A stretch of 64,000 bases of DNA from positions 2,418,001-2,482,000 of the forward strand of contig NZ_CP147915.1 in the NCBI RefSeq assembly GCF_039645585.1, read 5' to 3'. The stretch comes from Sulfurimonas sp. HSL-1656. GTDB lineage: Bacteria > Campylobacterota > Campylobacteria > Campylobacterales > Sulfurimonadaceae. The notes under the pieces were generated by a model. It was not told the origin of the DNA. It saw only the letters and a list, made by a program, of their open reading frames with translations, and searched no databases. Shown one piece after another: positions 50,914 to 52,834 of the stretch (position 1 is its first letter; each line of letters begins with the position of its first letter). Both the position numbers and the translations under genes were made by a program.

Positions 50914-50977
50914 TCGGGCCGCGGCTTATCGCTGTATGAGAAAGACCTGCTATACTTACCGGAAAAAAGAAACGTCA

Positions 50978-52588
50978 ATGGACCAGCCCCTGATCTACGC
51001 CGTTACGGCCCTCGCCATCTCCGTCGTTCTCAACATCCTGCTCAAGAAGATCGGCGTCTCCCAGGTGATCGGCTATATCCTGACGGGCACGAGCATCGTC
51101 TACGCTTTCGACCTGCGCCACTTCAGCGATTCGCACGCCCTGGAACAGATGGCGGAATTCGGGATCGTCTTTTTGATGTTCACGATCGGGCTGGAACTCT
51201 CCCTGCCGCGGCTGGGGGCGCTTAAACAGATCGTCTTCGTCAACGGCCTGCTGCAGGTCCTGGTCACGGCGGTGACGGTTTTCGCCTTCGCCTACGGCCT
51301 TTTCGGCATCGGCCTCACCTCCTCCATCATCATCGCGAGCGCCTTTGCGCTCTCCTCCACCGCCGTCGTGCTCAGCTATCTCAAAAGCTCCAAGGAGATC
51401 CATCTCCCCTACGGACAGCGCGCCATGGGGATCCTGATCTTCCAGGACATCGCCGTTATCCCGATTCTGCTGCTCATCGGCTTCCTCGCCAGCGAGGGGG
51501 GAGACTGGCAGAGCACCCTGCTGCACACCGCGGAGAGTGCCGTCCTGATCCTCCTCATCCTCTTCACCGTCGGCCGGCCGCTGATGACCTGGCTGCTGCA
51601 CTTCGCCGCCGACAGCGGAATAGAGGAGCTCTTTCTCGGCTCCGTTCTCGTGATCGCCGTCGGGGCTTCCCTGCTGGCCGATGCCATGGGGTTTACCTAC
51701 TCGCTGGGCGCCTTCCTGGCCGGGGTCATCATCGCCGAAACACGCTATCACCACAAGGTCGAGGCGGATATCGCCTCGTTCAAAGACCTCCTGCTGGGGG
51801 TTTTCTTCGTCACTGTCGGCATGAAGATCGATATCGCTTTTTTCGCCGAGCACCTCGTCAATATCCTCGGCATCCTCGCGGCCGTCATGCTGCTCAAAAG
51901 CCTGATCATCTTCGCATTGATCCGCCTCAGCAGCCCGACGCCCGTCGCCCTGAAAACGGCGCTGTCGCTCTCCCAGCTCGGAGAGTTCTCCTTCGCCATC
52001 TTCGCCCTCGCGGCCTCGGACGGGCTGCTCGACCCGGCCCTGGAGCAGTACCTGATCATGATGGTCGTCGTCTCCCTCGTCCTGACCCCTTTTTACCTGC
52101 CGAAAGTCCACCCCTTCGTGCTCAAGCGGTTCCAGCAGAAGGGACTCCACGACAACCTTGCCCCCATCGCGGAACACCGTGACCACATCATCGTCTGCGG
52201 TTTCAGTACCGTCGGGAAGTTCGTCGCGGCCGAACTCAAGGCCCTGGGCATGGACTATGTGATCATCGACAACTCCCTCAAACATGTCAGGGAGGGGCTG
52301 GCGTGCAATGAGGCCATCTACCTCGGCGACCTCTCCAAACCGGCCATTGCGGAAGCGCTGCATACGGAGAACGCCTCCGCCGTCATCGTGACGCTCGACA
52401 ACCCCGAAAAGAAAAGCCTGATCTGCGAAACGGTCCTCGCCATCAACCCGCAGGCCAACCTCGTCGTGAAAATCGTGACGCTCGAAGAGAAAAAAGGACT
52501 TGAAGCACTGCATGTCGGCCATATCGTCGACGGAAAGCATGAAGTTGCAAAGGTCCTGGTTTCCCAGGCCATGCAATGTGAAATGTAA
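50978..52588 (+). CDS. Kef/CPA2-type cation:proton antiporter
   Basis: 536 aa from the ATG at 50978; an earlier in-frame ATG would add 14 polar residues and lacks a ribosome site. About 12 membrane helices (1-385) carry the CPA2 elements GYILTGTSIVYAF, FTIGLELSLPRLG and LSSTAVVLSYLKSS. A cytosolic TrkA-N/RCK domain follows (IIVCGFSTVGKFVAAELKAL, about 406-425, NAD-binding). It exports K+ or Na+ in exchange for protons. A full TrkA-C domain is not evident. TATACT lies about 25 nt upstream. Confidence 0.88.
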   Translation: MDQPLIYAVTALAISVVLNILLKKIGVSQVIGYILTGTSIVYAFDLRHFSDSHALEQMAEFGIVFLMFTIGLELSLPRLGALKQIVFVNGLLQVLVTAVTVFAFAYGLFGIGLTSSIIIASAFALSSTAVVLSYLKSSKEIHLPYGQRAMGILIFQDIAVIPILLLIGFLASEGGDWQSTLLHTAESAVLILLILFTVGRPLMTWLLHFAADSGIEELFLGSVLVIAVGASLLADAMGFTYSLGAFLAGVIIAETRYHHKVEADIASFKDLLLGVFFVTVGMKIDIAFFAEHLVNILGILAAVMLLKSLIIFALIRLSSPTPVALKTALSLSQLGEFSFAIFALAASDGLLDPALEQYLIMMVVVSLVLTPFYLPKVHPFVLKRFQQKGLHDNLAPIAEHRDHIIVCGFSTVGKFVAAELKALGMDYVIIDNSLKHVREGLACNEAIYLGDLSKPAIAEALHTENASAVIVTLDNPEKKSLICETVLAINPQANLVVKIVTLEEKKGLEALHVGHIVDGKHEVAKVLVSQAMQCEM

Positions 52589-52598
52589 AGTGTGGCTT

Positions 52599-52705
52599 AA
52601 AAACATCCCGGTAAAAGGAGGGGGGGGGAAAACCGGGATGCGCTTCATAGGTATATAAGGAGTGTATAAATGAAACTCAATGACTGCTACTGTTGTCGTT
52701 GAGAC
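52599..52705 (-). ncRNA. Candidate small RNA with C-rich anti-SD loops
   Basis: On the minus strand TATAAT (52712-52717) is followed after 6 nt by a region of about 107 nt that folds into three hairpins. Stem 1: CTCAACGAC (52695-52703) with GTCATTGAG (52676-52684), one mismatch. Stem 2: TTTCAT (52670-52675) with ATGAAG (52643-52648), its loop holding CACTCCTTA. Stem 3: CATCCCGGT (52632-52640) with ACCGGGATG (52604-52612), loop TTTT-C9-TCCTTTT, directly followed by TTTTT. Promoter, compact fold and U-tailed terminator are the hallmarks of a bacterial sRNA. The two C/U loops could pair with Shine-Dalgarno or poly-G sequences. Confidence 0.6.
52604..52640 (-). terminator. Terminator hairpin of the candidate sRNA
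   Basis: Perfect 9-bp stem, 19-nt loop with nine C, followed by five T (52599-52603) on the minus strand. It may also bound the convergent antiporter transcript. Confidence 0.65.
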
Positions 52706-52711
52706 AGCGGA

Positions 52712-52717
52712 ATTATA
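52712..52717 (-). promoter_or_regulatory. -10 box of the candidate sRNA
   Basis: TATAAT on the minus strand; predicted start about 52705. No -35 match. Confidence 0.5.
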
Positions 52718-52828
52718 GGGCAGAAGAAGTAAACTGGCCGTAAATATGCAACTATAATACAAATCTTTTATGTTATGTTTAAGTATAACAAATAGTTTTA
52801 CTTGGCCTTTGGCCGCCGCCCCTTTCGC

Positions 52829-52834
52829 TATAAT
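52829..52834 (+). promoter_or_regulatory. -10 box, leaderless start of the RDD gene
   Basis: TATAAT, then GGCGCC, then the ATG at 52841. No Shine-Dalgarno can fit. Confidence 0.6.

Follow-up and report, generated by a model that had tools for sequence, protein, structure and literature searches.

Between kefB and an RDD-family gene lies, very probably, the gene of a ~105-nt small regulatory RNA, a real RNA as far as its sequence can tell. It is a previously undescribed sRNA family of a known functional kind. We read it, with a probability of about 0.75, as a stand-alone, trans-acting anti-Shine-Dalgarno (anti-SD) sRNA that has its own promoter, is probably switched by an OmpR-family regulator and masks the ribosome-binding sites of a few mRNAs. 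What is known of post-transcriptional regulation in Campylobacterota comes, to our knowledge, almost entirely from Helicobacter and Campylobacter, and H. pylori has neither Hfq nor ProQ. An sRNA that is conserved in free-living relatives and has a promoter of its own, apparently a regulated one, offers a non-pathogenic comparison for RepG-type loops.

The host is a complete 2.56-Mb Campylobacterota genome (G000), in which the sRNA lies at ~G000:2470657, inside the 64,000-nt stretch of DNA analysed here (the window). The plus-strand gene kefB (50936-52588) encodes a Na/H exchanger with a TrkA-N domain, the RDD-family gene starts at ~52841 on the same strand, and the gap between them holds the following features:

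52729-52744, minus strand: direct repeat TTTAC-N6-TTTAC (11-bp period) at the -35 position, a putative OmpR/PhoB-type response-regulator box
52712-52717, minus strand: -10 box TATAAT (TATAAT, TATACT or TAAAAT in 21/21 relatives)
52599-52706, minus strand: predicted sRNA, ~105-108 nt (5' end +/- 2), with homologues in 21 genomes
52676-52703, minus strand: 5' hairpin CTCAACGAC...GTCATTGAG (hairpin 1), with pair conservation, also predicted in each relative folded
52654-52675, minus strand: anti-start box UUUCAUUUAUACACUCCUUAUA, 22 nt, nearly invariant in 21 relatives
52604-52640, minus strand: terminator hairpin, 9-bp stem with loop UUU-C9-UCC-UUUU; the stem is replaced in other genera, the loop stays pyrimidine-rich
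52620-52628, minus strand: C9 run in the terminator loop, differing in length among genus members
52599-52603, minus strand: terminal U run (U5)
52670-52702, plus strand: short ORF MKLNDCYCCR (10 codons and a stop), judged not to be a gene, its frame and peptide not being kept in relatives

The minus-strand TATAAT, the 9-bp terminator stem, the C9-TCC loop and the TTTTT end are present as the initial annotation described them. By reading of the sequence, the stem arms CATCCCGGT/ACCGGGATG pair 52640-52632 with 52612-52604 and enclose TTT-C9-TCC-TTTT. The minus strand folds at -25.4 kcal/mol, compared with -14.6 +/- 2.8 for dinucleotide shuffles (z = -3.9, 0/200 as good), and the folds of relatives reach z values of -2.0 to -6.8 in 9/10 tested, the remaining one being at -1.9. 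Among the three hairpins first reported, relatives share the 5' and terminator hairpins but not the middle one, which is weak in the window and missing when G001, G006 and G002 are folded; other genera have a different middle stem, ACACU/AGUGU. Likewise, the SD complementarity of the reported CACTCCTTA loop is correct, but the element is, more exactly, a 22-nt box that is mostly single-stranded (core CACUCCUUA unpaired with a probability of at least 0.83) and complements a whole SD-spacer-AUG-AAA start. A complete translation start, AAGGAGUGUAUAAAUGAAA, has its exact complement within the box, and a block of initiation by base pairing is therefore the best explanation of the box's function. 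Fold, conservation and promoter all support the proposal of a structured minus-strand sRNA with anti-SD elements: sequence and fold predictions give it its own promoter, an intrinsic terminator, no coding capacity and a conserved unpaired anti-SD seed. A search of 4227 Rfam families at gathering and permissive thresholds returned no match, the best sub-threshold hit (E = 3.4) being on the plus strand.

Homologues were sought with a covariance model that spans hairpin 1 and the box and leaves out promoter and terminator. At E <= 2e-5, it matches 21/228 genomes of the family, from sulfur-oxidiser-type bacteria of four genera (g1, g8, g12, g16), and finds the sRNA in 8/8 genomes of the window's own genus; the -10 box accompanies every one of these 21 homologues though it lies outside the model. 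Matches with E >= 6e-5 were discarded, and the nine of them inspected have neither promoter nor terminator. A box-plus-promoter pattern run over 399 genomes of the order gave no convincing homologue beyond the four genera of this one family. For hairpin 1, we used an alignment of three genera (A5), a single gapless stem with arms excised by hand and five distinct rows; the counts of the automatic structural alignment (A4) were not used, as it misaligned this hairpin in g8 and g16. In A5, 97.8% of pair cells are standard, with 8 further pair types and 2 doubly changed pairs, and slid controls give 26-63% standard cells and 0-4 further types; column shuffles are not decisive by themselves because there are so few distinct rows. 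Judged from these aligned sequences, compensatory changes have preserved hairpin 1. The g16 version is longer and has CUCCCCUU in the loop.

The terminator stem is wholly different in sequence between lineages, and its loop remains rich in pyrimidines, most loops having C4-C9 or CUCCUU. That the C run may vary had been anticipated, and between species it does: the run measures 9, 8, 6, 6, 5, 4 or 4 among genus members, or is interrupted (CCCCACCC). This natural series (9, 8, 6, 5, 4) could serve for measuring how run length affects pairing. At one locus (L057, in G033), the terminator hairpin is duplicated in tandem ~45-115 nt past the box, both loops having UUUUCACUCCUUA/U.

The likeness to RepG (HPnc5490) of Helicobacter pylori, pointed out in the initial annotation, holds for the architecture. 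Both RNAs have a TATAAT promoter, a length of ~90-105 nt, a 5' hairpin and an intrinsic terminator whose large C/U-rich loop contains an identical CCCCCUCCUUU, and RepG has a second UCCUUA motif in its 5' half, which we count as a further likeness. A blind pattern of this layout (TATAMT-N-CCCCTCCTTT-N-TTTTT) across 399 genomes of the order returned RepG and the sRNA as recurrent loci, plus scattered single matches. Common descent would account for this, and we consider it unlikely, since the differences are extensive. By reading of both sequences, the 5' hairpins look unrelated (CCAACCAUUCCUUAUGGUUUGGUUGG in the sRNA, CUCAACGAC..GUCAUUGAG in RepG), RepG is without the CAUUUAUACACUCCUUA anti-start box, and no TTTAC repeat is seen before its -10 box. 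RepG is flanked by hsrA/hp1044, whereas the sRNA is flanked by RDD/kefB, and nothing RepG-like was seen near the hsrA/cosR orthologue of the sRNA's genome. RepG targets a variable poly-G leader, whereas the genome hosting the sRNA has no leader with G >= 8, and the sRNA loop is not poly-C in other genera. The authors of the RepG work found no homologue outside Helicobacter (PMC8295292). The two RNAs have CCCCCUCCUUU in common and little else; thus, the sRNA is RepG-like in layout and loop and probably not RepG itself.

Two other systems resemble the anti-SD sRNA in part. In Campylobacter jejuni, CJnc230 carries an anti-SD single strand between two stem-loops and directly represses mRNAs (PMC11187230). 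CJnc230/FlmE is processed from the flgE transcript and lies downstream of flgE; a C-rich terminator loop is not described for it. The cyanobacterial Yfr1/Yfr10, from a different phylum and with no C/U terminator loop that we know of, share with the sRNA a conserved single-stranded UCCU-containing motif. This motif pairs with mRNAs, the tested case being the 5' region of ppa, and the first validated targets were porins (PMC6778093).

It is very unlikely that the RNA acts in cis, as a convergent terminator or an antisense RNA tuning kefB or RDD. Its 3' end, ~10 nt past the kefB stop on the opposite strand, would suit such a role; however, the sRNA does not overlap the kefB coding sequence, and a plain terminator would not preserve a 22-nt box. 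Moreover, the RNA is kept in g8 and g16, where kefB is not adjacent, and RDD is not adjacent in most g16 genomes. The neighbours vary by lineage (RDD/kefB, RDD/other, diguanylate cyclase/radical SAM), and since flanking genes change while the RNA stays, it is an independent gene and not part of a flanking one.

Still less credit is due to a functional plus strand, on which an SD and the short ORF MKLNDCYCCR between kefB and RDD would yield, for example, a small protein or a leader peptide. The plus-strand reverse complement does read a perfect AAGGAG-N7-ATG, and this strand also folds (z = -2.75); however, the start-like sequence owes its conservation to the minus-strand RNA, of which it is the complement. 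The frame changes between lineages, and the peptide differs in every other one (MKLNDCYCCR, MKLNDCYMSLRQ, MKLNDYCCR, MELKRLHLVN, MKTQQLLL..., MKNSTISI..., MKIFKNVK...); no U run follows the stem on the plus strand, the conserved -10 box and repeat indicate the minus strand in 21/21 genomes, and the plus-strand genes downstream differ between lineages. Loss of the stems with retention of the plus-strand reading had been named beforehand as the outcome that would speak against an sRNA, and the opposite was observed: hairpin 1 is kept and the plus-strand frame is not.

With regard to targets, two expectations of the initial annotation found no support. First, poly-G leaders were suggested as partners of the C run, but the genome has just three other G runs of at least 8, none in a leader, and no other gene start in the genus genomes searched has AAGGAGGGGGG. 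This absence argues that the C-rich loop reads SD sequences, not G repeats. Second, the RNA was proposed to regulate many mRNAs, but extended matches to the box complement are scarce: few starts come within 3 mismatches of it, and when 396 start regions were ranked with RNAduplex, shuffled boxes paired at least as well as the box itself (the genome background was twenty 20-kb stretches). Without an excess over shuffled boxes, only few targets are supported, and we claim no regulon or global effect. Two results count against our best explanation: starts similar to the box complement are also present in genomes with no detected sRNA homologue, and we found no target gene that recurs between genera. 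Exported proteins seemed enriched, but we discounted this as an artefact of the search, which is biased by the ATGAAA in its pattern.

The best target candidate predicted from sequence is a 111-aa secreted protein (G000:464182), whose gene is preceded by TAGGAGTGTATATATGAAA (CAGGAG in G005) in four species (G000, G004, G005, G007). The predicted duplex of the box with this start has -22.4 kcal/mol and ~20 pairs, from the SD to AUG-AAA. This locus (L109) encodes a Gly/Leu-rich protein of 108-111 aa with no Pfam match, conserved in the four species. That the box is instead a sponge, decoy or protein-binding site, its strong mRNA complements being chance starts, would fit its missing genome-wide preference for gene starts and the missing recurrence of targets between genera, but this is highly improbable, as the three motif positions (g16 loop 1, box and terminator loop) all complement the SD, as mRNA pairing predicts.

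For the trans-acting anti-SD sRNA, we propose the following mechanism. The RNA's own promoter would drive a transcript of ~105 nt, probably switched by an OmpR-family response regulator at the -35 position. The 5' and terminator hairpins would then leave two pyrimidine-rich surfaces exposed: First, the box may pair with a few mRNAs over their SD, spacer and AUG. Second, strong SD sequences (AAAAGGAGGGG) may be bound by the terminator loop C(4-9)UCCUUUU, which is complementary to them. Pairing would hide the ribosome-binding site and thus repress translation. A more ambitious reading, which we offer tentatively and consider doubtful as a whole, is that this undescribed family masks whole starts (SD, spacer and AUG) in one 19-nt complement, reads SD sequences in a tunable way through a C-run loop of variable length, answers to an OmpR-type regulator and arose in parallel with RepG; if so, the homopolymer sits in the regulator and not in the target.

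Considering the promoter, a TTTAC-type repeat stands 10-11 nt from the -10 box in 21/21 relatives, again outside the model; the strict motif TTTAC-N5-xTT(A/T)A(C/T) is found in 19/21, and the other 2 have a variant second half, TTTACAATTGGTTAGT. TTTAC-N5-TTWAC 10-11 bp before a -10 box also precedes, within the window's genus, a soxX-like cytochrome gene (G000:767656) and ruvA (G000:866590), and in g16 genomes the TTTAC-type repeat with a -10 box is also upstream of gltX and guaB. A reversed control pattern gave 0 matches in 17/18 genomes. The repeat thus appears before housekeeping and sulfur-oxidation genes as if it marked an OmpR-family regulon, perhaps of a CosR/HsrA-like regulator. The genome encodes a CosR/HsrA orthologue (G000:1900869), which scores 366 bits to chain 8uvx_B, a sequence we take to be Campylobacter CosR, and 292 bits to 2HQR (HP1043 structure); in all, the OmpR-type DNA-binding domain has 18 matches in the genome. 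One OmpR-type regulator gene lies at G000:768913, near the soxX-like gene. A comparable arrangement is that of H. pylori CncR1, where HsrA/HP1043, an orphan regulator of the OmpR family, binds the promoter at a repeat with an 11-bp period; CncR1, however, is 213 nt long and has other targets. The HsrA box is TTTAAG-N5-TTTAAG (PMC5253667), and the TTTAC repeat of the sRNA shares its period and place and differs in the fifth base (TTTAC, not TTTAA).

Two minor observations concern the rest of the window. On the plus strand, a TATAAT (52829-52834) lies only 6 bp before the ATG (52841) of the RDD gene, a spacing that suggests a leaderless RDD-family mRNA. On the minus strand, 2219-2651 holds four clustered tRNA genes (Gly, Leu, Cys, Ser).
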